Positions 35,416 to 52,896 of a stretch of DNA of 64,000 nt are shown one piece after another. Position numbers and translations under genes: made by a program. The DNA comes from Actinoallomurus spadix (lineage in GTDB: Bacteria; Actinomycetota; Actinomycetes; Streptosporangiales; Streptosporangiaceae). The notes below the pieces were generated by a model. That model was not told the DNA's origin, ran no database searches, and saw only the letters and a list, made by a program, of their open reading frames with translations. Each line of letters starts with the position of its first letter. The stretch's first letter is position 1. Location: NCBI RefSeq assembly GCF_024055725.1, contig NZ_JAMXMX010000015.1:1-64000 (forward strand). The letters are read 5' to 3'.

Positions 35416-35445
35416 TGAGATCGCGCACTGTTCGAGGCGATCTCA
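35416..35445. terminator. hairpin between convergent aarF and KS-like operon
   Basis: TGAGATCGC (35416-35424) pairs with GCGATCTCA (35437-35445) across 12 bases. It lies between the aarF stop and the final stop of the minus-strand operon, overlapping the latter's TGA. No T-run follows on either side beyond AATT, so termination is probable but not certain. Confidence 0.5.
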
Positions 35446-36429: not shown

Positions 36430-37652
36430 CGCAGCGCGACCTCCACGCTTACGGGGCGCCGGTCGCCCAGCACACCCTCCCAGACCGTCTCCTCCAGCGG
36501 TCGCACCAGCCGAGCCGTGGGAAAGCGGTCGAGGAACGCGGGCACTGCGACCTGTGCCTGGAGTCGTGCCACGGCGGCGCCCATGCAGTAGTGCGGTCCC
36601 TGACCGAAACTGAGGTGGCCGGCCGGCCCGGAGCGGTCCGGGACGATTCGGTCACCTCCGGCGAACACGCGGGGATCGCGGTTGGCCGCGGCGAGCAGCA
36701 CCATCACCGCGTCGCCCCGGTCGATGCGGGTTCCCGCGATCTCCAGGGGTTCACGCGCGAACCGCCAACTGCTGAAGGAGACCGGAGGTTGATAACGCAA
36801 TGCCTCCTCCACGGCGCACTCCACCGAGCCTGACGCGACGGTAAAGCGAAAGTCCTGGTCACACAGCGCCAACGCACAGGCCACCGCGATCAGTGTCACG
36901 GGTGGACTCGATGCGCCGAGCAGGACCGATCCCACCATGGACACCGCCTCCCGGCGCCGGATCCGCCGCGCACGCAGCGCGCCGACGATCACGGACAACA
37001 GGTCGTCGTCCCCGGCATCCTCGTGCTCGCGGACGCTGACGAACTCCGCGAGCGCTTCGCTCATCTCCAGGTACGCGCTCCGCATCTCCGGCTCCTCCGG
37101 GTGACGAGGGCCGAGCAGCAGCCGGCAGCAGGCCATGGCCGCCGCGCAGGCGTCCTCCGCGACACCGAGCAGACGAGCGATCACGACGGTGTTGAGCGGC
37201 TCGGCGAAGTCGGTGACCAGGTCGATGTGTTCTTCGTCGGCAAGCCTGTCCAGCAGCACCTTCACCGCGGCGGTGACCATAGGCCTCTTGTCCATGAGCG
37301 CACGGGTGGCCAGGTGCGGTCCGAGCACGCCGCGCAGCCGGGCGTGCGTCTCGCCATCGGTGTTGAGCAGTTGGCGGCCCGAGACCAGCGTCACGTCCTC
37401 CGGCCACCGAGTACGACCCAGTCCCGCCGCGGTTCCCGGCAGATTGAAAGGATCTTTGACCAGGCGTTCATCGGACAGTGCCGCTCGTCCCTCCGCATGG
37501 CCCGTGATCACCCATAGCGGAATGTCACCCGGCGCGAGAACCTGTCGCACCGGGCCGGATCGCGAGAGTTCGCGGAAGCGATCCGGATATGGACGGGCGT
37601 GGTAATTCGCGTCGACGAGCGGGGCAGGTGCGCCCGGGTGCTCAGCCGTCAT
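36426..37652 (-). CDS. cytochrome P450 with atypical I-helix
   Basis: 408-aa bacterial class I P450. The heme-binding loop is LSFGQGPHYCMGAAVARL with Cys356; ExxR is Glu283-Arg286 (EEALR). The I-helix oxygen-activation segment, normally AGxD/E-T, reads LGASSPPVT (245-253), so the acid-alcohol pair is absent and two prolines interrupt the helix. Similar departures occur in P450s acting on carrier-protein-bound substrates or doing non-hydroxylating chemistry. No ferredoxin is nearby. Its start overlaps the ACP gene by 11 bp and its end overlaps the KS-like gene, so all three are coupled; the substrate is likely an acyl group on the ACP. Confidence 0.9.
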   Translation of the reverse strand: MTAEHPGAPAPLVDANYHARPYPDRFRELSRSGPVRQVLAPGDIPLWVITGHAEGRAALSDERLVKDPFNLPGTAAGLGRTRWPEDVTLVSGRQLLNTDGETHARLRGVLGPHLATRALMDKRPMVTAAVKVLLDRLADEEHIDLVTDFAEPLNTVVIARLLGVAEDACAAAMACCRLLLGPRHPEEPEMRSAYLEMSEALAEFVSVREHEDAGDDDLLSVIVGALRARRIRRREAVSMVGSVLLGASSPPVTLIAVACALALCDQDFRFTVASGSVECAVEEALRYQPPVSFSSWRFAREPLEIAGTRIDRGDAVMVLLAAANRDPRVFAGGDRIVPDRSGPAGHLSFGQGPHYCMGAAVARLQAQVAVPAFLDRFPTARLVRPLEETVWEGVLGDRRPVSVEVALR

Positions 37653-37905
37653 TGCCGGCCCCTTTCAGCTTGCCGGCGACAACGGCGCAGACGTCACCGA
37701 CGGTGCGGACCCGGAAGATCGCCTCGTCGTCCAGTTCGACTCCGAGGCGGTCTTCGATGTCGACGAGCGCCCTGACCATTGCGATCGAAGCGGCCCCGGG
37801 CAGCTCCAGCAATTCGGACTCAGGAGTGATCACGTGAGTGTCGGAATCGAGGCCCAGCGCCGAGCACAGGGAGTCCCGGACGGCGGCGAACACGGTGGGG
37901 GACAC
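37642..37905 (-). CDS. acyl carrier protein
   Basis: 87-aa four-helix carrier protein. The phosphopantetheine site is Ser40 in LPGAASIAMVRALVDIEDRLG; the usual Asp-Ser-Leu is Ala-Ser-Ile, a departure seen in some stand-alone carrier proteins. C-terminal helix FRVRTVGDVCAVVAGKL is typical. GTG start at 37903-37905 with ACGGAG six bases upstream. It lies between the second KS-like gene and the P450 gene and is the probable acceptor for the acyl-AMP ligase of the same operon. Confidence 0.87.
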   Translation of the reverse strand: MSPTVFAAVRDSLCSALGLDSDTHVITPESELLELPGAASIAMVRALVDIEDRLGVELDDEAIFRVRTVGDVCAVVAGKLKGAGNDG

Positions 37906-37931
37906 GGGGAACTCCGTTCTTCGGTGATTCT

Positions 37932-38888
37932 TCAGTGGCCCGAGACCACTACGGCGGCGACGGTCCCCCCGGCGGCCACGCTGACCAGCAGGTGATGCTC
38001 GCCGGGACCTGGCGGCGGCTCCTCGGCGAGGTCGGCCAGCAGGCCGCCCGCACCGAGGTACCCGGCCGAGGCCCGGGTGGATCTCACCCGGTCTCGGAGG
38101 CCGTCGAGCAGACCGCTGCACACCATGCCGCGTAGGGCGCTGTCCCCGGCACCGGGCACCAGGACCGCGCTGAGCCTGGGATCCCGGTCCGTCAGGCTCG
38201 CTTCACCCAGTGCCTGGGCGACCGCCGAGCAGACGGCAGCGCGGACTTCTCGCGTGGCTTCCGGGCGGGCAGCCGAATCCTGCCGTCCTTCGCGGAGCGT
38301 CATGACGGAGTCGCGGTCGAGGTGAGACGACTCCGGGCAGGGGGCGGCGACGGAAACGATCGAGGCGATGGTGCGCCGTCCGGGCCCACGGGTAACTACG
38401 ATCGCGGTACCACCACCAGCCGGTGGGGAGTGGCCTTGGCACGGGTCATGAGGTCGGAGGCCATCGCCGGTCGCGGCCACCGTGGTCGTCCAGTCCGGTT
38501 CCGTGACCAGCCAGAGCACCGACTCGCGCAATGCGGCCACGCCGCTGTTGGCCATCTGCTGTACACCCAACGCGACACAGCGGTTCGCGCCCAACAGCCG
38601 TGCCACCCGGTGCGGTGGGGTCCATACGTGCTCCCCCTGGTGGGACACCCAGCCGTACGCCAAACCGTCCACTTCGGCCGGAGAGCGCCTCGCGTCGGCC
38701 AGAGCACCGACGGCGGCGTACACCGCCATCTCAGGTCCCGTGAGGTCACCGGACGCGGTCGACGATCCGACGCCCGCGACCTCGGGGCCACTCAGCACAC
38801 CACGCGAAGAGGCGTTCTCGCTTCTGCCGACCGTCGGTGGCCGCCAGACCCTGGCGCCGGCGATGGCGATGGGAACATCGATTCGCAT
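37932..38888 (-). CDS. FabH-like (KAS III fold) protein lacking nucleophile
   Basis: 318-aa paralogue-like partner of the 35.4-kb protein, with VPIAIAGARVWRPP at the start, VDGLAYGW, and a matching nucleophile region LGVQQMANSGVAALRE in which the Cys position is Ala113. The His region reads LVPGAGDSA and the Asn region SAGYLGAG, so no residue of the Cys-His-Asn triad can be recognised. ATG at 38886-38888. It may pair with the other KS-like protein as a non-catalytic partner, as the chain length factor does in type II polyketide synthases; that comparison is inference. Confidence 0.75.
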   Translation of the reverse strand: MRIDVPIAIAGARVWRPPTVGRSENASSRGVLSGPEVAGVGSSTASGDLTGPEMAVYAAVGALADARRSPAEVDGLAYGWVSHQGEHVWTPPHRVARLLGANRCVALGVQQMANSGVAALRESVLWLVTEPDWTTTVAATGDGLRPHDPCQGHSPPAGGGTAIVVTRGPGRRTIASIVSVAAPCPESSHLDRDSVMTLREGRQDSAARPEATREVRAAVCSAVAQALGEASLTDRDPRLSAVLVPGAGDSALRGMVCSGLLDGLRDRVRSTRASAGYLGAGGLLADLAEEPPPGPGEHHLLVSVAAGGTVAAVVVSGH

Positions 38889-38929
38889 GTCTCTCCATCG
38901 GTTTCGAGATACCGCGGCACCGCACCGAT

Positions 38930-40600
38930 TCACGGCTTCACCAGTTCGCGGAGGTAGCGGGCAGTGAGGGCGCGTTGCCACTTGCCGCTGGTGGTGCGAG
39001 GCAGGGTGTTGCGCGGCACGACGTGGACATCGACGGCACCGAGGTCGAGCCGCGAGGACACCAGGGCCCGCAGCCGGACGGACAGATCGGCCGCCGTGGC
39101 GAGATCGTCCGTTTCCGCCACCACGACCACTCGTTCGCGGTCGTGGTCGGCTACTGCGACACAACGGCCGTGGCCTCCGGGCATGCCCGCCCTGACCACG
39201 TCCTCGACATCCTCGGCGAAGAAGTTCCGACCGGCCACGATGACCATGTCCTTGGCGCGGCCCGCGATGTAAAGTTCGCCGTCCAGCCGGACACCCAGGT
39301 CGCCGGTATGCAGCCAGCCGCCACGCAGCAGCGGCCCGGCGGGGCTGCCCGGCGTGTCGAAGTAGCCGTCAGCCAGCGACGGTCCGCGCAATACGATCTC
39401 GCCGACTTCGCCGTCCAGTACGTCACGCCCGTGCTCGTCGCGAAGTCGAAGTTCCATGTCGGGGACGGCATGACCGACGCAGACCAGCCCGGTGCCGTGG
39501 TCCGTGCCTTCTGGCACAACGACGGCACGGCGATGCTGGGCCAGCGATTCCCGGTCCAGCCACGCTACCTTAGGAGGTGTACCCGGTTGGGGGCAGGCGA
39601 CGGACATGACGGCCTCCGCCATCCCGTAGACCGGCAGCATTGCCGTGGCCGCCAGGCCGGCAGGCCCCAGCGCTCGGGCGATGTCATTCACCGTCCCCGG
39701 TTTCACCGGCTCGCCACCGTTGAGGGCCAATCGCCACGAGCTCAGATCGAGCCCACCCAGCAGGCTGTTGTCGGAGTAAGCGGCAGCGATCCTGTCGTAG
39801 GCGAAGTTGGGGCCGCCGAAGACGGTTGCCCGGCAGGCACTGACGTGCTCGATGACCTCCCGTGGACGACGGATGAAGCGCCACGCACTGAACAAGTGGT
39901 GCTCGTAGCCCTGCCATATGCCGAACAACAGGGTAATCAGCCCAAAGTCGTGGAAAAGCGGTACCCAGGAGACGACGATGTCGTCCGGATTCACCGTGCT
40001 CGCCACCGCTGTCGCGGCGAAGCAGGCGAGCACCGCCCGATGGGAGAGCACCACGCCTTTGGGGCGGGCAGTGCTGCCGGAGGTGAACTGCACGATCGCC
40101 GGCGATGTCGGCCGCACCACCGACGAAGCCGGTCGGACGGCGGCCGGTGCGCAGTCGCGAACGGCCAGGACAGCGAGGTCCGGTCGCAACGCGTGAAGCT
40201 CCCGCGCGATCTCCTCGTATGCCTCGGCCACGAGCAAGTGGCGCACACCGTCGAGCATCGGAGCCAGGCCGGCCGCCACGGCACTCGGGGCCGCGGGCAC
40301 CGGCGGCACGGGAATCACGGTGACCGCACCACCTGCCGCCCACACGCCGAACGCGGCGGGAAGAAATTCCGGTACCGAGCCGATGAGCAGACCGACAAGT
40401 ACTCCGTCGGCCACCCCCAAGCGTCCGAGCGAGTCTGCGACGCCCCACGCTCGTTCGGGAATCTCGCGGTGCAGCAGGCGCTCACCGGTCTCGGGGAACA
40501 CCAGTTGCGTGCCCCCACGATCGTCATCGAGGTGGTCGATCAGCTCAGCGAGGGTTCGCACCGTTGACCGACCAGGATGCACTGAGTTGCTACCACCCAC
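38930..40600 (-). CDS. fatty acyl-AMP ligase-like adenylating enzyme
   Basis: 556-aa ANL-superfamily enzyme resembling fatty-acyl-AMP ligases that load acyl-carrier proteins. Core motifs: FTSGSTARPKG (172-182), WVPLFHDFGLITLLFG (FAAL-like), LPVYGMAEAV, WLHTGDLG, GRAKDMVIVAGRNFFAEDVE, and TTSGKWQR with the catalytic Lys. The PLFHDFGL and GRNFFAEDVE forms are typical of FAAL proteins. GTG start at 40598-40600 with GGAAGG about 10 bases upstream. First gene of the operon; it should activate a carboxylic acid and transfer it to the downstream ACP. Confidence 0.85.
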   Translation of the reverse strand: MGGSNSVHPGRSTVRTLAELIDHLDDDRGGTQLVFPETGERLLHREIPERAWGVADSLGRLGVADGVLVGLLIGSVPEFLPAAFGVWAAGGAVTVIPVPPVPAAPSAVAAGLAPMLDGVRHLLVAEAYEEIARELHALRPDLAVLAVRDCAPAAVRPASSVVRPTSPAIVQFTSGSTARPKGVVLSHRAVLACFAATAVASTVNPDDIVVSWVPLFHDFGLITLLFGIWQGYEHHLFSAWRFIRRPREVIEHVSACRATVFGGPNFAYDRIAAAYSDNSLLGGLDLSSWRLALNGGEPVKPGTVNDIARALGPAGLAATAMLPVYGMAEAVMSVACPQPGTPPKVAWLDRESLAQHRRAVVVPEGTDHGTGLVCVGHAVPDMELRLRDEHGRDVLDGEVGEIVLRGPSLADGYFDTPGSPAGPLLRGGWLHTGDLGVRLDGELYIAGRAKDMVIVAGRNFFAEDVEDVVRAGMPGGHGRCVAVADHDRERVVVVAETDDLATAADLSVRLRALVSSRLDLGAVDVHVVPRNTLPRTTSGKWQRALTARYLRELVKP

Positions 40601-42845: not shown

Positions 42846-42886
42846 GGGGCAACGTATTTTCTACCTGCGACTTCTTATTTTTCTCG
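42846..42886 (-). promoter_or_regulatory. AT-rich candidate whiB7 promoter/autoregulatory site
   Basis: On the minus strand this segment reads GAGAAAAATAAGAAG followed by TCGCAGG and TAGAAAATACG, an AT-rich island in very GC-rich DNA at the end of the trmH-like gene. WhiB7-dependent promoters have an AT-rich block immediately upstream of a -35 element. I cannot assign -35/-10 boxes with certainty. Confidence 0.35.
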
Positions 42887-43678
42887 TGCCGTCTTCGCCG
42901 CCACTCCGCGTTGCCGGGCGGCCTCGTAGAGGAAGATCGTCGCCGCGGACGCGGCGTTGAGCGAACTCGCCGCCCCGACGATCGGGATTCGGACGACCTC
43001 GTCACAGGCCGCCGTCCAGGCGCCGCTCATCCCGCGGGTCTCGTTGCCGATGACGAGCAGCGCCGGGCCGCGCAGGTCGCTGTCGCCGACGTCCACGGTG
43101 CCGGTCTCGTCCGTTCCGACGATCCGCAGGGCCTTCTCCCGCGCCCAGTCGATCACCGTACGGGGCGCCGGCACCCGTACGACCGGCACGGCGAACAGCG
43201 ACCCCGTGCTGGCGCGCACGGACTTGGGATCGTACGGGTCGGCGGCGTGCCCGGTCACGATGACCCCCGAGGCCCCGAATGCGTCGGCGGATCGGACGAC
43301 CGTGCCGATGTTGCCCGGCTCGGCGGCCCGGTCGAAGACGACGACGGGCCCGTCCGGCGTGATGCGCGCCAGGTCGTCCGGCGGCAGCTCCGCGACGGCC
43401 ACCAGCTCGGCGTCCTCCTTGCCGGCCAGCTCGTCCAGCAGCTCCGGCGCCATCGCGACCCGCTCGGCCGCCGTCTCGTCCAGCACGCCCTGCGCCCAGG
43501 ACGACAGCCGCCGCCCGTGCGCGTACAGCAGGGCGCGGATCGGGCGGCCGTGCGCGATGGCGAGCGTGATCGGCCGCACCCCCTGCACGACGAACTCTCC
43601 CGACCGCTGCCGTTTGGTCCGGTTGGTGAGCAGCGCCGCCCACTGCTGGAAGCGCGCGTTCCGCGTAGTGATCCGCAT
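42875..43678 (-). CDS. TrmH/SpoU-family RNA 2'-O-methyltransferase
   Basis: 267-aa SPOUT methyltransferase. The N-terminal substrate-binding domain (RFQQWAALLTNRTKRQRSGEF; FVVQGVRPITLAI) is followed by motif 1 VVVFDRAAEPGNIGTVVRSA, motif 2 ALLVIGNETRGMS and motif 3 VRIPIVGAASSLNAASAA, which form the knotted SAM site. Family enzymes methylate a ribose in rRNA or tRNA; some confer resistance to ribosome-binding antibiotics (thiostrepton-resistance type). Its end overlaps the promoter region of whiB7, which reads in the same direction. ATG at 43676-43678. Confidence 0.9.
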   Translation of the reverse strand: MRITTRNARFQQWAALLTNRTKRQRSGEFVVQGVRPITLAIAHGRPIRALLYAHGRRLSSWAQGVLDETAAERVAMAPELLDELAGKEDAELVAVAELPPDDLARITPDGPVVVFDRAAEPGNIGTVVRSADAFGASGVIVTGHAADPYDPKSVRASTGSLFAVPVVRVPAPRTVIDWAREKALRIVGTDETGTVDVGDSDLRGPALLVIGNETRGMSGAWTAACDEVVRIPIVGAASSLNAASAATIFLYEAARQRGVAAKTAREK

Positions 43679-44057
43679 CAGTCGGTCACCGTACAGCCAC
43701 GGCGGCGCCGAGCCCGCCCCACCGCCACGGGCAGGAGACGACCCAGCCGACCTGAAACCAGACAAATCTTGACATTATTGGACATTTCCTCCTCTCCGCG
43801 CCAGACACCCTGACAGAACCTCACCCGCTGTCGCCGCCCAACCGAACAACATTCTTCTGCTGGGAGTCTGGACAAAAATCGCTATTGCGGACGACCATGT
43901 ACCCGTCCGATGTATCGAGCAGGATTCGGCCTCCGCACCAATGCGGCCTCCTGACCTCCTCGCGCTTTCGGCTCCGAAGGGCCATGCCCCAGCCACTCGA
44001 GGGGACCGGCGGGAAACAGGGCGTCAGCCGGCCTGATCGGCATCCGCCTGCACAGAG
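43679..44057. other. AT-richer intergenic region between trmH-like and WS/DGAT-like genes
   Basis: Divergent promoter region of about 380 bp. TTGACA at about 43769-43774 and neighbouring AT-rich sequence are candidate promoter elements. A minus-strand frame at 43821-43985 would encode a 54-aa protein (start MALRSRKREEV) but has no ribosome site and low third-position GC, so I leave it uncalled. Confidence 0.4.
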
Positions 44058-45365
44058 ATGGTCACGCACAGAACAATGACCGGCCGAAGCCCGAACCCCT
44101 CCGCTCCCGTCGGAGTCAACTACTGGACCGAGAGCTTCCTCTCGATGGACGCCGTGGCCCCTCAGGCCGCCGACCCGTATTTCGGATTCCTGCTCCGGGG
44201 CACCGGCCGCGCGCCGGACCTGGAGGACCTCCGTGAGCGGATCGCGCGCAGCCTGCCGGCCCTACCCGCGCTGACGCACCGTCCGAGCACGACGGAAGGC
44301 CGCCTCCGCTGGACCTCCGACGAGGCCTTCGACATCCGACGCCATGTGCGGACCTGCCCCCGGCTCGACGAAGACCTGAGTCCGGCGCAGCAACTGATCC
44401 CCGCCACGGAGCCGGAGCGGCCGCTTTGGGGCATCTGGCTCGACCCGGGCCTCCACGACGGACGGTGGGAGCTCTACTTCCTGACCCACCACGCGGTTCA
44501 AGACGCCACCGGCGTCCTGCGCACGCTGCGGATACTCCTCTGCGAAGATCCGGCCGACCTGCCTGGCCAACCCCCTGAGCCCGGCGCGCGCCCCTCCCTT
44601 CTCCACGCCGTGCGGGCGATGGCCGTCCTGGCTCCGCAGGTCCTCTCCAGCTACCTTCCCACCGCCGGGTGGGACCCCATCGACCAGGTCAAGGGACGGC
44701 GACGACGATTCGCGTATGCGCAGGTGCCCACCGCAACGCTGCGCACCGTGGCCGACCGGTACGGCGCCAGCGTCACCCAGGTCCATCTCGCCGCCATGAC
44801 GTCGGCGCTCCGGGCCCTGGACGCCCAGGCGGGCTCGTCCTCGACGCGACACCGCCCGTTGCACGTCTGCCTTCCCCTGGACACCCGGCAGCCGGGCCGG
44901 CGGGAAGACGCCGTCGGCAACCACCTCGGACTGGACCGCATCCCCCTCCCCTGGGACCGGTCCTCACCGGCCCAGCAGCTCAGAGCGATCACCCGCACCG
45001 TCGGCAGATCGAAGATCCGGCGGCACAAGCGAGCCTGGGAGGACGTGGTGGCCGCCGGTCCTCACTCGCTCCTCGGTCGCCTGCACATGCGGGTCGCCCA
45101 CCCGGCCCGCACCAGGCTCACCATCTCCGGAGTGAACGTCCCGGACGCGCTCACCTGCCTCGGCGCGCCGGTGACCGAGCTCATCCCGCTGCCATGGATG
45201 CCTCCCGGCCACGCATGCTTCACGCTCATGGCGACCTATGACGGGAGGACCACGCTCTCCGTGCTGACAGACGAGGACGCGATCGCTCCCGAAATCCTCA
45301 CGGCGCGATGGCTCCAGGCCGTCGACGAACTGCACGCGGCGCCGCTCAGTGACTCTCGCTTCTGA
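44058..45365 (+). CDS. WS/DGAT-like O-acyltransferase
   Basis: 435-aa protein of the wax ester synthase/diacylglycerol acyltransferase type. The catalytic HHxxxD motif is THHAVQDATG (His144, His145, Asp149). The C-terminal half matches the DUF1298-like domain (VGNHLGLDRIPLP; RLTISGVNVPDALTCLGAPVTEL; FTLMATYDGRTTLSVLTDE). The N-terminal LSMDAVAPQAADP segment resembles the family's MSPxDA start region. Family reaction: acyl transfer from acyl-CoA to a hydroxyl group. An alternative start is the ATG at 44076; neither has a strong ribosome site. It precedes the phenylpropanoid-type operon by 225 bp on the same strand, suggesting esterification of that pathway's alcohol. Confidence 0.82.
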   Translation: MVTHRTMTGRSPNPSAPVGVNYWTESFLSMDAVAPQAADPYFGFLLRGTGRAPDLEDLRERIARSLPALPALTHRPSTTEGRLRWTSDEAFDIRRHVRTCPRLDEDLSPAQQLIPATEPERPLWGIWLDPGLHDGRWELYFLTHHAVQDATGVLRTLRILLCEDPADLPGQPPEPGARPSLLHAVRAMAVLAPQVLSSYLPTAGWDPIDQVKGRRRRFAYAQVPTATLRTVADRYGASVTQVHLAAMTSALRALDAQAGSSSTRHRPLHVCLPLDTRQPGRREDAVGNHLGLDRIPLPWDRSSPAQQLRAITRTVGRSKIRRHKRAWEDVVAAGPHSLLGRLHMRVAHPARTRLTISGVNVPDALTCLGAPVTELIPLPWMPPGHACFTLMATYDGRTTLSVLTDEDAIAPEILTARWLQAVDELHAAPLSDSRF

Positions 45366-45539
45366 GAACCCGGCCTGGCGGGTGGACGACTGGCATCGAA
45401 TCCTAGAAACGGATTGCCGATGACGGTTCAGAACACGACGTCGCAGGCGAATGCCGAGTTGTCATCGAACGTCGCAAACCTTATCGGCAATTGCATACAG
45501 CGAACTTCACCGCCAATTAATTGAATGTTTACTCAGATA

Positions 45540-45569
45540 TTGACTGTTTTGGCCCTAAAGGCAGATACT
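45540..45569 (+). promoter_or_regulatory. promoter of the phenylpropanoid-type operon
   Basis: TTGACT at 45540-45545 and GATACT at 45564-45569 are separated by 18 bp in the AT-rich spacer upstream of the lyase gene. Predicted transcription start is near 45576, about 15 bases before the first ATG and 39 before the next in-frame ATG. Confidence 0.5.
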
Positions 45570-45590
45570 TCATGTCCGTAACCCCGCCCC

Positions 45591-47117
45591 ATGGCTGAGA
45601 GAAGCGGGAAGTACATGAACGCCTTCGTCCCCATCCTCCACTCCAAATCCGCTCTCACCCCTGTTGACCTCGAGTCGGCCTCCGGTCCAGTCGACGTAGT
45701 CCTCTCCGAGGAGGCGCTGGCCGCGGTCAAGCACGGTCACGCGTTCGTCGCCGCCAGCCTGCGCGACGAACGGCCGGTGTACGGCTCGACAACCGGCTTC
45801 GGGCCACTCGTCGTGTTCGATGGCCGGGAATCCGCGGCCGAGCAGTGCGAGAACGTGCTGCAGCATCTCACCGTCGGACAAGGTCCCGATCTGCCGCCCG
45901 AGGTCGCGCGCGCCGCAGTGCTGGCACGCCTGTGGTCCTTGTCCCGCGGAGTCTCCGGCGTCTCCGACACCGTCGTGCACGCACTACGCCGGATGCTTCA
46001 GGCCCCCTTCGCACCCGCCGTTCCCACGCTCGGCTCCGTCGGCGCCAGCGGGGATCTCGTACCACTCGCCCACGTCGTACAGGCGTTGCGCGGCGTCGGC
46101 CACGCCTACGTGGACGGCGTGCGGATGCCCGCGGACGAGGCACTCGCCCGCGCCGGCCTCGACCCCTTGCGCCTGGACGGCCGCGACGCGCTCGGACTGG
46201 TCAACGGCACGTCGGTCACCAGCGCGCTGGCCGGGCTGGCCACGGCGTCGTTGCAGAGGTCGCAGCACGTCGCCGTCGGGCTCGTGGCGCTGCTGGCCGA
46301 CCTGCTCGGGGCGGCACCGGCCTTCCTCGCGCCCCCGCTGCTCGCGGCCTTCGGACATCCGGAGGTCGTGACTGTAGGTGCGGAGCTGTCCTCGTGGTTG
46401 GCCGGCATCGATCCGTCACCGGACCGTCCACTGCAGGAGCCGTACAGCATCCGGTGCACCCCGCAGCTCCTCGGCGCGGCCAGGTCCGCCATCGCCTGGT
46501 CGTCGGAGGTCATCACCCGCGACCTCAACGGAGTGAGCGACAACCCGCTCTTCTTCCCCGAAGAGGACCTCGTCGCGCACGGCGGCAACTTCTTCGGGCA
46601 GCCCGCGGCGTTCGCGTCCGACCTGCTGTCCATCGTGGCGACGCAAATCGGGAACCTCGCCGAACGCCAGGTCGACCTGCTGGTCGACCCGCACCGCAAC
46701 GGCGGCAGGCCGCCGATGCTCTCGACGAGCCCGGGACGGCAGCACGCGATCCAGGGCATGCAGGTGCTGGCCACGTCCACGGTCGTGGCGATGCGCCGGT
46801 GCTGCACACCGGCCGCGATGCAGAGCGTGCCCACGAACCTGCACAACCAGGACATCGTGCCGTTCGGAACGCAAGGGGCGCTCACGGCCTTCGAACAGGC
46901 GCGATCACTCCGTCTCCTGCACGGCTGTCTCGGCGTCGCGCTGCGCCAGGCGATCCACACCGGATCCCGGAGGCCGACGGCCCGCCGGTGCGCCGACCTG
47001 GCGGCCGCCCTCGCGGACCAGATCGCGCCCATCGAGCAGGATCGGCCGCTCGACGAGGACATCCGCACGGCCGCCGACGTACTCGACCGCCACGTCGCGG
47101 AGACGGCGACCGCATGA
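45591..47117 (+). CDS. MIO-type aromatic amino acid ammonia-lyase/aminomutase, tyrosine-type residues
   Basis: 508-aa member of the HAL/PAL/TAL family. The MIO prosthetic group forms from Ala152-Ser153-Gly154 (GSVGASGDLVPLAH). YGSTTGFG carries the catalytic Tyr64. The ring-selectivity pair aligns with His92-Leu93 (NVLQHLTVG), the His-Leu pair of tyrosine ammonia-lyases, whereas histidine lyases have Ser-His. NGTSVTSALAGLA and NNPLFF-like DNPLFFPEEDLVAHGGNF segments are intact. Product would be p-coumarate (or caffeate from DOPA), or beta-tyrosine if it is an aminomutase. An ATG at 45615 with GGGAAG upstream is an alternative start. No hut genes are nearby. It overlaps the next gene (ATGA). 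Confidence 0.88.
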   Translation: MAERSGKYMNAFVPILHSKSALTPVDLESASGPVDVVLSEEALAAVKHGHAFVAASLRDERPVYGSTTGFGPLVVFDGRESAAEQCENVLQHLTVGQGPDLPPEVARAAVLARLWSLSRGVSGVSDTVVHALRRMLQAPFAPAVPTLGSVGASGDLVPLAHVVQALRGVGHAYVDGVRMPADEALARAGLDPLRLDGRDALGLVNGTSVTSALAGLATASLQRSQHVAVGLVALLADLLGAAPAFLAPPLLAAFGHPEVVTVGAELSSWLAGIDPSPDRPLQEPYSIRCTPQLLGAARSAIAWSSEVITRDLNGVSDNPLFFPEEDLVAHGGNFFGQPAAFASDLLSIVATQIGNLAERQVDLLVDPHRNGGRPPMLSTSPGRQHAIQGMQVLATSTVVAMRRCCTPAAMQSVPTNLHNQDIVPFGTQGALTAFEQARSLRLLHGCLGVALRQAIHTGSRRPTARRCADLAAALADQIAPIEQDRPLDEDIRTAADVLDRHVAETATA

Positions 47118-47941
47118 CCGCGACGCTCGACCATCCGGCCTTCGGCCCGGTCCAGAAGGTCGACCTCGGCCTGCTGGTGCTTCCGCTGCCTGATCAGCCC
47201 TTCGCCGCCTGCGACGGCCCGACGCACCACCGAGTGAGCGCGCACGAGACCCTTATCGACGCGGACGAGAACACGCGCGGCTGGTACCGCTGGCTCCTTG
47301 GCCACCATGTGACGTTCTGCATCTGGCGCCTGATGTCGGAATCCCTGGGGGCCGTCCTGGCCGGCCGTGCCGAGGCTGCCGACACCGTGGCCCGGCTCTA
47401 CGACGCGTACTCCGCGCTGCTCCTGTACGCGGGAAGCTGCACGCCGGCGGTCTACGACAGCGTGATCCGGTCGCGGATGAGGGCCCGTCACCCCGCGTTC
47501 AGCGGGACGTGGGCCAGGGACTACCGGGAAGTGCTGGTACGCCTGGCCGCGGTGGCGCCCGCCCCGGGCACGCCGCTGAAGGAGTCCCTGAAGCTCAACC
47601 GGCTGGCGCACATGAGCATGGCGGCGCGCCTCGTCCCCTCCGGAGGCTCGCTACTACGGGACGCGGGGCGTGACGCGCACCAGGCCCCGACCGTGGAGGA
47701 GAGCGACCTCCTCGACTCATTCTTCCTCACCGGCCGGCGGTCGGTCTGTTCCCGTGAATTCGTCGAGCAACTTCACCACCGGACCCGTGCGGTGCTCACG
47801 GACCTCGAGCACCAACCGCTCGAAGTCCGTTACGACCGTGCCGCGCTCGACGACCTACAGGCCCGCATTACGACCCATATCGCCTTCCCCGCGCAGGCCG
47901 CTGAAGCCATCCTCACCGAAGGGACGGACAACCGTGGATGA
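47114..47941 (+). CDS. heme-dependent aromatic (tyrosine 3-) hydroxylase-like protein
   Basis: 275-aa protein resembling the LmbB2/SfmD/TyrH group of histidine-ligated heme aromatic oxygenases. The key feature is GWYRWLLGHHVTFCIWRLM, where His65-x3-Cys69 forms the HxxxC heme-attachment motif described for SfmD. Further helices (YSALLLYAGSCTPAVYDSVIRSRM; HPAFSGTWARDY) fit the mostly helical, indoleamine-dioxygenase-like fold. Family reaction: hydroxylation of L-tyrosine or 3-methyl-tyrosine next to the phenol using peroxide. ATG at 47114 overlaps the lyase stop. With the lyase, DOPA or caffeate would result. The family call is by motif and size only. Confidence 0.62.
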   Translation: MTATLDHPAFGPVQKVDLGLLVLPLPDQPFAACDGPTHHRVSAHETLIDADENTRGWYRWLLGHHVTFCIWRLMSESLGAVLAGRAEAADTVARLYDAYSALLLYAGSCTPAVYDSVIRSRMRARHPAFSGTWARDYREVLVRLAAVAPAPGTPLKESLKLNRLAHMSMAARLVPSGGSLLRDAGRDAHQAPTVEESDLLDSFFLTGRRSVCSREFVEQLHHRTRAVLTDLEHQPLEVRYDRAALDDLQARITTHIAFPAQAAEAILTEGTDNRG

Positions 47942-48614
47942 CCTGACCGAAATGCAGCCGTACGTCGAGAAGACGATGCCGATGACACCCGAGCTGATGC
48001 GGTACGTGCGTGCGCAGGCCGGACCCCTGACCGCCGCCCAGCGCTCACTGATGGACGCCACGCTCGCGCTCGGCGGTGTCGCCGAGATGCAGATTCCCCC
48101 CGAGCAGGGGGTCCTACTCACCCTGCTCGCGCGGCTGATCTCCGCCCGCACGGTCGTCGAGGTCGGCACCTTCACGGGGTACTCGACGATGGCGCTCGCC
48201 GAAGGCGTCGACACCGACGGCACAGTGATCACCCTTGACATCACCGATGAGTGGTCGGCGATCGCGACCGAGGCCTGGCGCGCGGCCGGGGTGGCTGAGC
48301 GGATCCGCCAGGTGCACGGGCCGGCGGCGGAGTCGCTCCGGACGCTGCCGGACGAGCCGTTCGTGGACCTCGTCTTCATCGACGCGGACAAGGTCGGCTA
48401 CGTGGACTACTGGGAACTGCTCGTGCCCCGGGTCCGTCCCGGCGGCCTGCTGATCGCCGACAACGTCCTGTACGCGGGTGAGGCGGTGTCCCCGGACGCG
48501 ACGGGCAACGCGCAGGCCATCCGCGACTTCAACGCCCATGTACTCGCCGACGACCGGGTCGAATCCGTCCTGCTCACCGTGGCCGACGGGCTCACCCTCG
48601 CCCGCAAGAAGTAA
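47934..48614 (+). CDS. caffeoyl-CoA/catechol O-methyltransferase-like protein
   Basis: 226-aa class I metal-dependent O-methyltransferase (CCoAOMT, SafC/SfmM3-like). Motif I is TVVEVGTFTGYSTMALAEG; VITLDITDEW holds the ribose-binding acid; LVFIDADKVGYVDYWELLVP contains the metal ligand Asp of the IDADK signature; LLIADNVLYAGEAV supplies the second metal Asp-Asn. The GTG at 47934-47936 overlaps the hydroxylase stop by 8 bp and has GGGACGGA upstream; an ATG at 47952 is possible. Methylation of the new catechol hydroxyl (caffeoyl to feruloyl type) is inferred from fold and context. Confidence 0.88.
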   Translation: MDDLTEMQPYVEKTMPMTPELMRYVRAQAGPLTAAQRSLMDATLALGGVAEMQIPPEQGVLLTLLARLISARTVVEVGTFTGYSTMALAEGVDTDGTVITLDITDEWSAIATEAWRAAGVAERIRQVHGPAAESLRTLPDEPFVDLVFIDADKVGYVDYWELLVPRVRPGGLLIADNVLYAGEAVSPDATGNAQAIRDFNAHVLADDRVESVLLTVADGLTLARKK

Positions 48615-48652
48615 GCCCCGCAGACGATGCAAGCGAATGTGGAAGTGGACCA

Positions 48653-49678
48653 ATGAAGGCGGCGTTGCTCAACAGGCCCGGTGAGATCATCACCGGGGAG
48701 GTGCCCGACGCGGTGATCGAGCTCCCGACCGACGCGGTCGTCCGTGTCGTGGCGGCGGGCGTCTGCGGCACGGACGTGCGGGCCTACCGGGGACTCCCCG
48801 GCCCGGTCTCGGGGCCGTGGTGCGGACACGAGTTCGTAGGCGTGGTTGAGGACGTGGGCACGGCCGTAGAGACGGTCCGCGTGGGTGATCTCGTCGTGGC
48901 CCCGTTCATGTTCTCCGACGGGACGTGCGCCCGGTGTGCCCGCGGGGTTCCCACCTCCTGCATGGCCGGCGGCATGTGGAGCGTTCAGGCAGGTGGAGCG
49001 CAGGCCGAGGCGATACGCGTGCCGCTCGCCGACGGGACGCTCGTCCACGTCCCGATGGACGAGCACGACGAGCGCGTACCGGCAGTGCTGACGCTCGCCG
49101 ACGTCATGCCCACCGGGTACCACGCGGTCCGGACGGCCGGGCCTGTCGCCGGAGCCACCGTCGCCGTCGTCGGGGACGGCGCGGTGGGGCTGTGCGCGGT
49201 GCTGGCGGCCCGCCGGGCCGGCGCGGAGCGGGTACTCCTCCTCGGGCACCACGAGGGCAGACTGCGCATCGGGAAGGGCTTCGGCGCGACCGAGGTCGTC
49301 ACCGCTAGGGGTCCGGAGGGACACGCCCAGGTTCTCGACGCCACCGGAGGAATCGGCGCTGACCTCGTGGTCGAGGCCGTCGGCGAGCAGGGAGCGCTGG
49401 ACACCGCCATGGCGGTGTGTGCCGACGGCGGCGTGATCAGCCTGGTCGGCGGCCCGCACGGCGCGATCGACATGGCGGCGTGCTTCCTGCGCAACGTGCG
49501 GCTCACCGGTGGGCTCGCACCGGCCCGCGCCTATCTTCCGGAGCTCCTCGCCGACGTCGTCGCGGGCGAACTCGATCCGAGTCCGGTGTTCGAGCTGACC
49601 GTGCCGCTGGACGCCGCGGACGGTGGTTACCGCGCGATGGTCGATCGGCAGGCCACGAAGGTCCTGGTCGAACCGTGA
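48653..49678 (+). CDS. zinc-dependent medium-chain alcohol dehydrogenase (CAD-like role possible)
   Basis: 341-aa MDR alcohol dehydrogenase. Catalytic zinc: Cys38 in GVCGTDVRAY and His-Glu in WCGHEFVGVV. The structural-zinc lobe DGTCARCARGVPTSC has only three of the usual four cysteines, so that zinc may be weak or absent. Rossmann motif VAVVGDGAVGLCAVLAARRAG. The position between an O-methyltransferase and a ligase-reductase fusion suggests reduction of a cinnamaldehyde-type product or oxidation of an alcohol intermediate; direction is not readable. Confidence 0.85.
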   Translation: MKAALLNRPGEIITGEVPDAVIELPTDAVVRVVAAGVCGTDVRAYRGLPGPVSGPWCGHEFVGVVEDVGTAVETVRVGDLVVAPFMFSDGTCARCARGVPTSCMAGGMWSVQAGGAQAEAIRVPLADGTLVHVPMDEHDERVPAVLTLADVMPTGYHAVRTAGPVAGATVAVVGDGAVGLCAVLAARRAGAERVLLLGHHEGRLRIGKGFGATEVVTARGPEGHAQVLDATGGIGADLVVEAVGEQGALDTAMAVCADGGVISLVGGPHGAIDMAACFLRNVRLTGGLAPARAYLPELLADVVAGELDPSPVFELTVPLDAADGGYRAMVDRQATKVLVEP

Positions 49679-49686
49679 GGGTGAAC

Positions 49687-51933
49687 GTGAGAACGTACGA
49701 GGATCCCGGGGAGATCGCGGTCAGCGGGTACGTTCTGGACTCGCCGGCGGACGGCGACCGGATCGCCGTGGTCGATCACTCGCGCGGTGCGCCGCGCGAG
49801 TGGACGTACGGTGACCTCACCCGGGCGATCAGCGGGCTCGCCGGGTGCCTGCGCAGCCTCAGGCTGGGCGAGGACGCCGTCGTTGCCGTGCTGACGGAGA
49901 ACAGCGCGGAGTTCGTCATCGCGTACCACGGGACACTGACCGCAGGGTGCACGGTCCTGCCGCTCGACCCGCGCGACCCGGCGCGATGGGCCGCCGCGAT
50001 CGCCGAGACCGGCGCGGAGGCGCTCATCGTCGAGACCGCCCTCGGGATCCCCGAGTCATCGATTCCGGCCACGCACACGATCGTGATCGGGGACGGGCCA
50101 CCCGGATGCGTCGCCTGGGCGGAGGCGCTGCGCGCGGCGCCGGATCCGCAGCCCGTCCGCGGCGGAGAGCGGCCCGCGGTCCTGATGTCCTCCAGCGGCA
50201 CGCTGCGCGGACCGAAGCGGATCGCGGTGACCCACCATAACCTGGTGGCCAACCTCGCCCAGATCGCCGCGTTGCACGAGATCCGCAGCGGGGACGTCGT
50301 CCTATCCGTCCCCCCGCTGCGGCACATCTACGGGATGCAGATGGCCATGAACCCGGTACTGCGCGCTGGGGCGACCCTGGTCATCGTCGCCACTCCCTTC
50401 TCGGTGCCGCACTTCCTCGGCCTGCTCCGGGACCACCAGGTCGCGGTGGCGTACGTGGTGCCGAGCGTGCTCGCCGAACTGGCGGCGATGCCGTCGATGC
50501 AACGGGCCTGGCCGGACCTGCGACTGGCCGTGTCCGGAGGGGCGCCGCTGCCCACGTCCGTGGCCGTCCGGTCCGCCGAGTCGCTGGGGGTACCGGTGGT
50601 GCAGGGCTTCGGTATGACCGAGGCGGGCTGCGTCTGCTTCAGCCCCGACGGCCGGGCGGTGCCGATCGGCTCGGTGGGCGTCCCGCTGCCCGGCACGGAG
50701 GTGCGGTTCGTCGATCCGGAGACTGGTACGGACGTCGCACCGGGCCGGCCGGGCGAACTGTGGGTACGCGGCCCGCAGGTGGTGCCGGCCGGCGCCGACC
50801 CGTCGATGCCGCGCGCCGAGGGCGGCTGGCTGCGCACCGGCGACCTGGCAGCCCAGGACGACGAGGGATTCGTCCGGATCACCGGCCGGATCAAGTCGCT
50901 CATCAAGTACAAGGGGTACCAGGTCTCACCGGCCGAGCTCGAGGACGTCCTGGCCACGCACCCCGCCGTCGCCGAGGCCCTCGTCGCGGGCCTGCCCGAT
51001 CCCGTGGCGGGCGAGGTGCCGAAGGCCTACGTCGTGCTCAACGACCGGGTGCCCCTGTCCGAGATCACGCGACACGTCGCCGACCGGGTCGCGCCGTACA
51101 AGCGCGTGCGGGCCATCGAGCGCGTACAGGCCATCCCCCGTTCCTCCACCGGCAAACCGACCCGGCCGCCGGCCCTCCGGGCCCTCGTGACCGGCGGTGG
51201 CCGGGGTCTGGGCCGGGCGTTCGCCGAGGGCCTCGCGGCGGCGGGCGCGTCCGTACTCGTCACCGGACGCGACGAGGCCGGCCTCCTCGAGACGGCCAAG
51301 GGCATCCGGGAGCGCGGCGGCATCGGGGAGTACGCGGTCGCCGACCTCACCGATCCGCAAGCCTGGGCACGCGTCCTCGGTCACCTGGACGACACGCTCG
51401 GCGGCGTCGACGTGCTGGTCAACAACGCCGGTGCCCCAGGACCGATCGGTCCTCTGTGGGAGGTCGACGAGGACGCGTGGTGGCACGCGATGGAGGTCAA
51501 CGTCCGAGGAAGTGCGCTCGTCACCCGAGCCATACTGCCCCGGCTGCTCGACCAGGGCGGCGGTCGTGTCGTCACCGTCGTCAGCCGGGCCGGCCGGAAG
51601 CGATGGCCGCACGCCGGCGCGTACTCGATCTCGAAGGCCGCGTTGATCTCCCTGACCGCGAACCTCGACGGCGAGGTCCACGGCACCGGGATCACCGCTG
51701 TCGCCTTCGATCCCGGCCTTCTCGACATCGGCATTACCAGGGCACATCTCGACCGTGGGCACACCGGAGACCGCTGGGCCGACGAGATCCTGGACTGGAC
51801 CCTGGCCGCACGCGACGCCGGACGGTTCACTCCTGTCGAGACGGCCGTACGTGCGCTGGTCGCCGTGGCCACGGGTGCAGCCGACCACCTGGCCGGCCGA
51901 TACGTGACAATCGAGGACCTGTCGCTGGATTAA
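49687..51933 (+). CDS. 4CL-like acyl-AMP/CoA ligase fused to a short-chain dehydrogenase
   Basis: 748-aa bifunctional protein. Residues 1 to about 495 are an ANL adenylating enzyme (MSSSGTLRGPKR at 167-178, VVQGFGMTEAGCV, WLRTGDLAAQDD, GRIKSLIKYKGYQVSPAELE as in 4-coumarate:CoA ligases, and PRSSTGKP with the catalytic Lys). From about residue 498 a classical SDR starts with no linker or carrier domain: ALVTGGGRGLGRAF, VNNAGAPG, and Tyr646-x3-Lys650 in AYSISK. Start GTG at 49687 has GAGG six bases upstream; GTG 49681 is an alternative. Carboxylic acid reductases are A-carrier-R; the missing carrier makes this arrangement unusual. CoA thioester formation followed by ketone or acyl reduction is inferred. 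Confidence 0.85.
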   Translation: MRTYEDPGEIAVSGYVLDSPADGDRIAVVDHSRGAPREWTYGDLTRAISGLAGCLRSLRLGEDAVVAVLTENSAEFVIAYHGTLTAGCTVLPLDPRDPARWAAAIAETGAEALIVETALGIPESSIPATHTIVIGDGPPGCVAWAEALRAAPDPQPVRGGERPAVLMSSSGTLRGPKRIAVTHHNLVANLAQIAALHEIRSGDVVLSVPPLRHIYGMQMAMNPVLRAGATLVIVATPFSVPHFLGLLRDHQVAVAYVVPSVLAELAAMPSMQRAWPDLRLAVSGGAPLPTSVAVRSAESLGVPVVQGFGMTEAGCVCFSPDGRAVPIGSVGVPLPGTEVRFVDPETGTDVAPGRPGELWVRGPQVVPAGADPSMPRAEGGWLRTGDLAAQDDEGFVRITGRIKSLIKYKGYQVSPAELEDVLATHPAVAEALVAGLPDPVAGEVPKAYVVLNDRVPLSEITRHVADRVAPYKRVRAIERVQAIPRSSTGKPTRPPALRALVTGGGRGLGRAFAEGLAAAGASVLVTGRDEAGLLETAKGIRERGGIGEYAVADLTDPQAWARVLGHLDDTLGGVDVLVNNAGAPGPIGPLWEVDEDAWWHAMEVNVRGSALVTRAILPRLLDQGGGRVVTVVSRAGRKRWPHAGAYSISKAALISLTANLDGEVHGTGITAVAFDPGLLDIGITRAHLDRGHTGDRWADEILDWTLAARDAGRFTPVETAVRALVAVATGAADHLAGRYVTIEDLSLD

Positions 51934-51941
51934 GGCGTCGT

Positions 51942-51994
51942 GGTGATCCCTGGCGAATGCTGCCGATAGGACGCAGTAGCCACCAGGGATCACC
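51942..51994. terminator. bidirectional hairpin between ligase-SDR and tesB
   Basis: GGTGATCCCTGG (51942-51953) pairs perfectly with CCAGGGATCACC (51983-51994); the 29-base loop can fold further (GCTGC...GCAGTAGC). TTT follows on the plus strand. It lies between convergent genes. Confidence 0.7.
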
Positions 51995-52015
51995 TTTCGA
52001 GCCGGGGCGCCGGGG

Positions 52016-52876
52016 TCAGGAGCCGGTGACGCGGATGAGACCTTCCTGGACGACCGAGACGACGAGCTCGCCGGTGCGGGTGAACACCTGGCCGCGGGCG
52101 AGACCGCGGGCACCGGAGGCGTTCGGGGTGTCCTGGGCGTACAGCAGCCACTCGTCGGCGCGGAACGGCCGGTGGAACCACATCGCGTGGTCGAGGCTGG
52201 CGCCCATCGTCTTACGGTCGCCCCAGGCGAGACCGTGGTTGAGCAGGACGGTGTCCAGCAGGGTCATGTCCGAGGCGTACGTCATCAGGCAGACGTGCAG
52301 CAGCGGGTCGTCGGGCAGCTCCCCCGCCACGCGCAGCCAGACCAGCGACTCCGGCCCGACCAGCTCCGGGTCGCGGGCGGCCTCCCAGGTCAGCGGCGTG
52401 ACGTGCCGCAGGTCGATCGGCCGGTTGCGCATGAACTCGTTGTCCAGCTTGCCGAAGAGCCGCTCCATCCGCTCCTGGAACGTCGGCAGCTCCTCCGGAC
52501 CCGGCACCTCGGGCATCGGCGCCTGGTGCGACGGGCCGTCCTCGGCGATCTGGAACGACGCCGACAGGGTGAAGATCACCTTGCCGTGCTGGATGGCGGA
52601 GACCCGCCGCGTGGTGAACGACCGGCCGTCACGGACCCGGTCGACGGTGTACACGAGCGGCACGCTCGGGTCGCCCGGGCGGATGAAGTACGCGTGCAGC
52701 GAGTGCACCCTGCGGTCGTCGGGGACGGTACGCCCGGCGGCGACCAGCGCCTGGCCGGCGACCTGCCCGCCGAACACGCGCTGCTGGCGCTCCTCCGGGC
52801 TTCGCCCCCGGAAGATGTCGGCCTCGATCTGCTCCAGGTCGAGCAGTTCGAGCAGCTCCTTCAGCGCGGCGTTCAT
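52016..52876 (-). CDS. tesB: acyl-CoA thioesterase II (TesB)
   Basis: 286-aa double-hotdog thioesterase. N-terminal hotdog: RVFGGQVAGQALVAAGRTV and VHSLHAYFIRPGDPSVPLVY. C-terminal hotdog: MGASLDHAMWFHRPFRADEWLLY with the conserved Asp, and ARGQVFTRTGELVVSVVQEGLIR with the conserved Gln. Full family length. It hydrolyses acyl-CoA to free acid and CoA. ATG at 52874-52876, 20 bp downstream of uvrD2 on the same strand. Confidence 0.93.
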   Translation of the reverse strand: MNAALKELLELLDLEQIEADIFRGRSPEERQQRVFGGQVAGQALVAAGRTVPDDRRVHSLHAYFIRPGDPSVPLVYTVDRVRDGRSFTTRRVSAIQHGKVIFTLSASFQIAEDGPSHQAPMPEVPGPEELPTFQERMERLFGKLDNEFMRNRPIDLRHVTPLTWEAARDPELVGPESLVWLRVAGELPDDPLLHVCLMTYASDMTLLDTVLLNHGLAWGDRKTMGASLDHAMWFHRPFRADEWLLYAQDTPNASGARGLARGQVFTRTGELVVSVVQEGLIRVTGS

Positions 52877-52896
52877 CGCTCCATGACTCCTCAGGC

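Follow-up and report, generated by a model that had tools for sequence, protein, structure and literature searches.

In a 64,000-nucleotide stretch of the Actinoallomurus spadix genome (assembly GCF_024055725.1, contig NZ_JAMXMX010000015.1, positions 1 to 64,000; hereafter the window), six plus-strand genes at 44058-51933 likely encode a single pathway that would convert L-tyrosine to an O-methylated hydroxycinnamyl alcohol, probably in esterified form. We consider it quite probable that the route runs as far as an O-methylated hydroxycinnamoyl-CoA, and we give even chances to its full extension to the alcohol and ester. In the proposed scheme a heme enzyme would hydroxylate tyrosine to L-DOPA, a lyase would remove ammonia to give caffeate, and a methyltransferase would methylate one catechol oxygen, before or after the deamination or on the thioester, to give a ferulate- or isoferulate-type acid. 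A 4-coumarate:CoA ligase (4CL) domain would make the CoA thioester and a fused short-chain dehydrogenase/reductase (SDR) would use NADPH to reduce it to the aldehyde, the single-chain ligase-reductase thereby acting as a carrier-free counterpart of a carboxylic acid reductase. A zinc dehydrogenase would then reduce the aldehyde to the alcohol, which an enzyme of the wax ester synthase/diacylglycerol acyltransferase (WS/DGAT) type would join to an acyl-CoA. An initial annotation of the window had proposed conversion of tyrosine or DOPA to a methoxylated hydroxycinnamyl product. The first four predicted activities, as far as the thioester, are supported by protein family, conserved residues and synteny, while reduction and esterification are steps that we infer from the stand-alone gene set and the precedent of wax-ester synthesis.

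All six genes are open reading frames at the positions and in the families first assigned to them (open reading frame and Pfam scan), and five of them form an operon-like run at 45591-51933, where the short spacings and overlaps described earlier measure -4, -8, +38 and -4 bp in succession. The acyltransferase gene is separated from the lyase gene by 225 bp, and this gap holds, just ahead of the lyase, a promoter-like site (TTGACT-18-GATACT, 45540-45569, plus strand) that is a consensus match only, with one found against 0.4 expected from shuffled sequences. Because of the gap and the promoter-like site, the acyltransferase gene may be a transcription unit separate from the other five.

The co-occurrence of these genes in other genomes is far beyond chance. 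A hydroxylase alignment of 30 rows, run against 84,980 species genomes, yielded 66 pattern stretches and 23 loci. We compared these loci with the window proteins by tblastn; the counts are conditional on this hydroxylase-based discovery. The lyase, hydroxylase, methyltransferase and ligase occur together in 16 of the 23 loci, bearing out the conserved co-occurrence that had been put forward as a check on the operon. Taken singly, the hydroxylase is matched by the window protein in 22 loci, the methyltransferase in 20, the ligase in 18, the lyase in 17, the dehydrogenase in 11 and the acyltransferase in 3, and an SDR of at least 45% identity is found in 14 (13 beside the ligase, 1 apart). All six genes are present in Nocardia higoensis (L004), with the acyltransferase on the opposite strand, in N. 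macrotermitis (L011), with the gene order of the window, and in Umezawaea beigongshangensis (L020), with the acyltransferase between the methyltransferase and the dehydrogenase. In Amycolatopsis bartoniae (L021) five of the genes are grouped, next to glyoxylate-cycle-like and glycan genes, and in A. pithecellobii (L015) four are, followed by dus-like and glmS-like genes (neighbours of both named by eye). Partial loci carry the hydroxylase only (L023, L024), the hydroxylase and methyltransferase (L022) or the lyase, hydroxylase and methyltransferase (L025), and none of the genes was matched in L026. In L016, L020 and L021 the hydroxylase gene escaped the codon-usage gene caller, and neighbouring genes were identified by eye from their first residues. 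The hydroxylase scan was not exhaustive, as two further Lentzea loci (L069, L072), with a 38% hydroxylase, a lyase, a methyltransferase and a ligase, were missed by it and surfaced afterwards. Redox and ester genes travel together as well, since the SDR and dehydrogenase form their own separate pair in L016, and dehydrogenase and WS/DGAT-like genes are neighbours away from the lyase at L065:6934-9471 and L066:8517-10798. L065 shares a contig with L014. At three other loci (L075, L076, L077), in genomes of the same taxonomic order as the host, the hydroxylase gene lies beside a methyltransferase gene; no match to the window's lyase or ligase was found there in 19.5 kb, except for a 37% match to a fatty acyl-AMP ligase (FAAL) in L076. 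A 460-aa protein near the Saccharothrix cassette (L012:15827-17209, minus strand) looks by eye like a tryptophanase or tyrosine phenol-lyase.

The lyase (45591-47117, plus strand) is a methylidene-imidazolone (MIO) aromatic ammonia-lyase (PF00221, 410 bits). An alternative start at 45615 gives 500 aa, the length of the protein-database entry, and translation may begin there. Its best PDB chain, by single sequence as well as by a profile of 16 aligned lyases, is 2o6y, which is listed as a putative histidine lyase and which we take to be the Rhodobacter sphaeroides tyrosine lyase (RsTAL). The profile, built from the window protein and 15 relatives (of 17 lyases found, those of L007 and L015 were omitted because their starts are uncertain), gave 314 bits for 2o6y, 285 for the histidine lyase 7tqr, 274 for the aminomutase SgTAM and 215 for plant phenylalanine ammonia-lyase (PAL). 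All 16 aligned sequences have the MIO triad (A152-S153-G154), and all have the His-Leu pair of tyrosine lyases that was recognized at the outset (H92-L93), aligned to the His-Leu of RsTAL, presumably residues 89-90, where SgTAM has Ser-His. At the position of SgTAM Glu71, 15 of the 16 have Pro (P72), as does RsTAL, and one has Ala. The His of this pair acts as a selectivity switch, and Glu71 is a mark of SgTAM. A histidine ammonia-lyase with unrelated neighbours is very hard to credit: the histidine lyase models PRK09367 (342 bits) and TIGR01225 hutH (326 bits) are the top scorers among the NCBIfam families matched, but both scores fall below their cut-offs (524 and 539), and the synteny in 16 of 23 loci argues against chance neighbours. 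The host genome moreover has its own HutH, which passes its cut-off at 666 bits and carries Ser-His where the window lyase has His-Leu; with scores below the cut-offs and a HutH encoded elsewhere, we rejected this identity. The initial annotation had also offered an aminomutase route. In that case the set would yield O-methyl beta-DOPA, or a beta-hydroxy acid derived from it, of the kind found in enediyne side chains. The superfamily is the same, the tyrosine 2,3-aminomutase model TIGR03832 matches at 255 bits, and a catechol methyltransferase with a stand-alone ligase would fit such a product. We nevertheless think this route improbable, as the TIGR03832 cut-off is 501 bits, the profile prefers RsTAL over SgTAM, both SgTAM-diagnostic positions hold RsTAL-like residues, the ligase is 4CL-like, and neither an aminotransferase nor a carrier protein is among the six genes. 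Because it has RsTAL residues at both positions and passes no NCBIfam cut-off, and because the genome has a separate HutH, the enzyme is predicted to be tyrosine-lyase-like and neither a plain histidine ammonia-lyase nor an SgTAM-type mutase. The host genome encodes a third MIO-family protein (L003, G000:C8:36590-37885), which passes no NCBIfam cut-off.

The hydroxylase (47114-47941, plus strand) is a predicted histidine-ligated heme L-tyrosine 3-hydroxylase of the LmbB2/SsTyrH family. The Pfam scan gave no match for it, and its sole solved relatives are 7kqr (E 5e-30) and 8r2s (E 4e-29), both heme-dependent L-tyrosine hydroxylases. In an alignment of 30 of the 54 sequences found, R59, W60, H64 and H166 are conserved throughout, fitting the distal RWxxxH motif of LmbB2 and a second conserved His. 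The HxxxC heme motif pointed out in the initial annotation is present in the window sequence, but its Cys is conserved in only 18 of the 30, and we rejected it as a heme signature. LmbB2 converts tyrosine to DOPA and carries an R-W-x3-H motif (PMC3851162). Since this characterised member of the family acts on tyrosine, hydroxylation probably precedes deamination here, unlike in plants; the call of a 3-hydroxylase stands in that the protein is related to heme tyrosine hydroxylases, but a plant-like order of steps is not supported.

After the hydroxylase we consider jointly METHYLTRANSFERASE, the ligase, the SDR, the dehydrogenase and ACYLTRANSFERASE. The methyltransferase (47934-48614, plus strand) belongs to the class I catechol or caffeoyl-CoA type (PF01596, 162 bits). 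It had been called caffeoyl-CoA-type, which holds for the class but not for the closest structures: the best solved relatives are 5lhm/5log (167 bits), listed in the PDB only as a putative O-methyltransferase and taken by us to be MxSafC, whereas the best chain named as a caffeoyl-CoA O-methyltransferase (8gxn) reaches 102 bits. With L-DOPA or caffeate as substrate, MxSafC is reported to methylate chiefly the para oxygen (PMC9814250). The methyl group may thus be placed on the para oxygen, and because of this preference of MxSafC an isoferulate-type product should be considered as likely as a true monolignol.

The last gene of the run encodes a 752-aa ligase-SDR fusion (49675-51933, plus strand), in which Pfam finds AMP-binding (239 bits) and adh_short (153 bits). 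The 4CL-like domain comprises residues 1-497 (49675-51165, plus strand), and the closest solved relatives are plant 4CLs, as expected of the 4CL-like ligase fused to an SDR that had been reported here. Populus 4CL (3a9u) scores 231 bits and the next chains, also 4CLs, 199 or less, against 154 bits for the feruloyl-CoA synthetase of Amycolatopsis thermoflava. For an AlphaFold model (pLDDT 89.4), Foldseek ranks first 5bst, the structure of a 4CL containing coumaroyl adenylate. The HxY element of the 4CL substrate pocket is conserved (H217 in 38 of 38 aligned sequences, Y219 in 35). At the PVLAM loop of 4CL the ligase is five residues short in the PDB alignment; 5bsw is, by its title, a feruloyl-adenylate structure from a 4CL with V341 deleted. 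In their precomputed domains, three relatives of the ligase (P0097, P0100, P0132) show a cytochrome P450 domain but lack an SDR domain. The remainder of the fusion (residues ~500-752, 51172-51933, plus strand) is a classical SDR domain that we predict to be an NADPH-dependent thioester reductase, and no carrier domain was matched by the Pfam scan between it and the ligase. Its catalytic S637, Y650 and K654 (YxxxK) are each conserved in 35 of 38 sequences, and Arg532, a basic residue after strand 2, is conserved in 36, which suggests use of NADPH and hence reduction. The domain matches adh_short, adh_short_C2 and KR and not the extended epimerase kind at E 1e-3, although PF01370 appears in the precomputed domains of some relatives. 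The parallel drawn at first with the plant SDR-type cinnamoyl-CoA reductase (CCR) therefore fails, the fused SDR being of the classical, FabG/actKR-like kind and not of the extended PF01370 kind.

Between the methyltransferase and the fusion lies the gene for a zinc-dependent alcohol dehydrogenase of the medium-chain dehydrogenase/reductase (MDR) superfamily (48653-49678, plus strand; PF08240, PF00107), a predicted aldehyde reductase. The zinc assignment holds, with all ligands (C38, H59, E60, D150, D89, C92, C95 and C103) present in 13 of 13 aligned sequences, but the enzyme is not specially like cinnamyl alcohol dehydrogenase (CAD), as no chain of that name is among the best 60 of its 175 PDB matches. 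In N. alni (L013:11660-12070) the operon itself holds a short dehydrogenase match (171 aa, 50%), and a full one (62%) is found elsewhere in the genome. The 435-aa WS/DGAT-like O-acyltransferase (44058-45365, plus strand) matches PF03007 (68 bits) and PF06974 (42 bits) above their cut-offs and TIGR02946 at 142 bits, below a cut-off of 310. The HHxxxD motif (H144-H145-xxx-D149) is present in all six aligned sequences, the window protein included, and the Gly of HHxxxDG in three of the six, with Ala in the window protein. The suggestion that this upstream enzyme may esterify the product is upheld insofar as the acyltransferase belongs with the set; the esterification itself is a prediction.

For the steps beyond the thioester, the precedent is Acr1, an SDR that reduces acyl-CoA to the aldehyde ahead of an aldehyde reductase and a WS/DGAT (PMC11948995, PMC5806253). 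Several points weigh against extending this precedent to the six genes. Distant Acr1 homologues of the large SDR family in haloarchaea were judged to have other functions in one of these papers (PMC11948995), and for that reason SDR homology alone is no proof of function. The best matches of the SDR are FabG, gluconate/glucose dehydrogenase and actKR-like proteins, in a comparison whose sequences did not include Acr1. In 12 of the 23 loci no dehydrogenase turned up; when seven of their genomes were searched whole (E 1e-50), it was present elsewhere in six and had no match in that of A. pithecellobii (L015). The acyltransferase, found in 3 of the 23 loci, is the most divergent part of the set (34-39% identity) and is possibly transcribed apart from the other genes. 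The flanks of two Lentzea loci (L005, L009) lack a lyase, with four and three lyase genes, respectively, elsewhere in the genomes. The methyl group may be on either catechol oxygen. Finally, ketosynthases of the FabF/polyketide synthase (PKS) kind, in a search independent of the gene caller, occur in six of the 23 loci (L007, L008, L010, L012, L017 and L019), and L006 ends in a piece of the L007-type PKS. The Lentzea xinjiangensis PKS is a 1734-aa KS-AT-DH-KR-ACP protein encoded upstream of the cassette (L007:976-6180).

At loci with a ketosynthase, the thioester might serve as a starter unit, with the SDR working as a ketoreductase. More generally, the O-methylated hydroxycinnamoyl-CoA might not itself be reduced but serve as acyl donor or polyketide starter, taken up by the acyltransferase or by a ketosynthase elsewhere, with the SDR and dehydrogenase tailoring the extended or accepting molecule. 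We give this a minority share of the probability, roughly one chance in a few. It draws on the six ketosynthase loci and the FabG/actKR-like character of the SDR, on the existence of a four-gene form without the dehydrogenase (L015), and on loci in which the ligase lacks a fused SDR of at least 45% identity (L014, L017, L018 and L019, the last two with an unfused SDR of 36 and 40% identity, respectively) or in which the SDR stands apart (L016). However, no FabF/PKS-kind ketosynthase was found in the other 17 of the 23 loci, KASIII-type synthases having been searched for in the relatives only with the two of the window, and these 17 include L004, L011, L013, L015, L016, L020 and L021, where the SDR would therefore work on the product of the ligase. 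The FAAL, KASIII-like and P450 genes near the window cassette, for their part, are a compositionally distinct block at another insertion point. A far smaller chance attaches to a shortened or fully oxidised aromatic, such as a vanillate-type acid, formed by a beta-oxidation-like SDR acting on the hydrated thioester. A 4CL and an SDR could start beta-oxidative shortening, and a MaoC hydratase gene adjoins the cassette in L011, but it is on the opposite strand beside a gene for an FAD-binding oxidoreductase; Pfam finds neither a hydratase nor a thiolase among the six genes, and the cofactor preference that Arg532 would confer points to reduction. Because the ketosynthase-free loci also have no hydratase in the conserved set, the SDR would act on the ligase product, and in our preferred reading it most simply acts on the thioester from its fused ligase, giving the aldehyde.

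Some relatives carry an additional module that may bear on the final product. In four Lentzea loci (L005, L006, L007, L009) and in A. oliviviridis (L016) the cassette adjoins three further genes. Two encode a SnoaL-like protein, which begins with a signal-like sequence, and a short protein of membrane type; the third encodes a multicopper oxidase whose N-terminus resembles a twin-arginine signal (signal sequences read by eye). The module is thus present in at least two lineages, with four of the five loci in Lentzea. Among solved structures the oxidase is closest to chains named bilirubin oxidase and copper oxidase, and CotA laccase ranks lower. The oxidase family (E 1e-80) occurs in 30 of 394 genomes of the class, and at this threshold the host genome has no match. 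The SnoaL-like and membrane-type partners were not found in 20 loci of the 31 oxidase matches (flanks of ~1.5 kb), nor were the two partners found in the other cassette loci searched. Oxidative coupling of a phenolic product by this oxidase is speculation. Only tentatively would we go on to propose an independent actinobacterial monolignol pathway in which the alcohol is either capped by the WS/DGAT (window, Nocardia and Umezawaea) or coupled by the oxidase, with its SnoaL-like partner, outside the cytoplasm into lignan-like dimers (Lentzea and A. oliviviridis).

The six genes occupy a site that carries other DNA in some of the sister genomes. To the left lies an RNA methyltransferase-like gene (42875-43765, minus strand) and to the right an acyl-CoA thioesterase-like (TesB-like) gene (52016-52894, minus strand), both with functions named by eye. 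The two flanking genes are present in all eight genomes of the genus, on a single contig in all seven sisters. Measured between the ends of the best left and right matches, the gap is 8.25 kb here, 8, 122, 182 and 609 bp in four of the sisters, and 2.6, 3.1 and 17.2 kb in the remaining three, and this junction (43766-52015; also in G006, G009 and G012) may be an insertion hot spot. The lyase was not found in 40 relatives, seven of the same genus included (E 1e-120), and a search for the hydroxylase across 345 genomes of the order (E 1e-10) gave 11 with a match, the host's own counted and none of the seven sisters among them. The plasmid collection gave no hydroxylase match, and we rejected a plasmid origin. 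The host genome is 8.0 Mb in 71 contigs, and the G+C content of the window is 69-73% in 4-kb steps. G+C at third codon positions (GC3) is 0.86-0.91 for the six genes, against 0.93-0.97 for the thioesterase-like, UvrD-like and ABC1-kinase genes; the values for the RNA methyltransferase-like (0.91), WhiB-like (0.88) and YgjP-like (0.87) genes overlap the cassette range, making composition alone weak evidence. A separate block on the minus strand (35443-40600) encodes a FAAL-like ligase, two KASIII-like proteins, a small carrier-protein-like ORF and a P450. It was set aside as a part of the pathway because of its lower GC3 (0.77-0.80 for four genes, the carrier-protein ORF excluded) and its own insertion stretch, the distance from the ABC1-kinase gene to the RNA methyltransferase-like gene being 7.5 kb here and 1.3-1.6 kb in all seven sisters. 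From this block only the P450 was matched in relatives, at ~30% identity in L016 and L018.

Monolignol chemistry is treated as a hallmark of plants. If the proposed pathway is correct, it would be a convergent assembly with another hydroxylase, another order of steps and a ligase-reductase fusion in place of 4CL and CCR, and biocatalysis would gain a short path that leads from tyrosine to hydroxycinnamyl aldehydes and alcohols without a carrier. The optional additions, acyltransferase and multicopper oxidase, would then predict the product of each species. The individual parts are known; what seems to be a new variation on bacterial phenylpropanoid biosynthesis is their combination, together with the probable timing of hydroxylation and the joining of ligase and SDR in one protein. 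Our searches of open-access literature brought up no title or abstract opening that describes this gene set, an absence that in such a source weighs little.

Plants make monolignols with phenylalanine or tyrosine ammonia-lyase (PAL/TAL), coumarate 3-hydroxylase (C3H), caffeoyl-CoA O-methyltransferase (CCoAOMT), 4CL, CCR and CAD. The six genes share with this pathway the families of the lyase, the CCoAOMT-type methyltransferase and 4CL, and in both a redox pair accompanies the ligase. Not all six plant steps are covered by homologous enzymes, however, as the hydroxylase and the reductase come from other families: the former is a heme enzyme from a family that includes a tyrosine hydroxylase and would probably act before deamination, and the latter a classical SDR fused to the ligase, unlike the extended SDR of CCR. 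The dehydrogenase shows no special likeness to CAD, and a WS/DGAT-like acyltransferase is added. Carboxylic acid reductase is built as adenylation, carrier and reductase domains; if the SDR acts on the thioester, the fusion likewise combines adenylation and NAD(P)H reduction in one polypeptide, but with no matched carrier domain, a 4CL-like adenylation domain and a classical instead of an extended SDR. The wax-ester pathway (FadD, Acr1, aldehyde reductase, WS/DGAT) has the same enzyme types in the same chemical order, whereas here the predicted substrate is an aromatic hydroxycinnamoyl group and a single chain holds both ligase and SDR. For the methyltransferase, the best match is presumably MxSafC, of the saframycin pathway, where the context differs. 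The saccharomicin route of Saccharothrix espanaensis, whose lyase we take to be sam8, is likewise an actinobacterial route to caffeate from a gene cluster. There the sam5 product hydroxylates p-coumarate without esterification (PMC8773403), whereas the present set has a heme tyrosine hydroxylase, a methyltransferase and the ligase-SDR fusion. The hydroxylase itself is a sequence relative, with conserved histidines, of the heme aromatic oxygenases LmbB2, SsTyrH and SfmD. Those known enzymes serve the lincomycin, anthramycin and saframycin pathways (PMC11791213), whereas the partners of the hydroxylase described here are a lyase and a 4CL.

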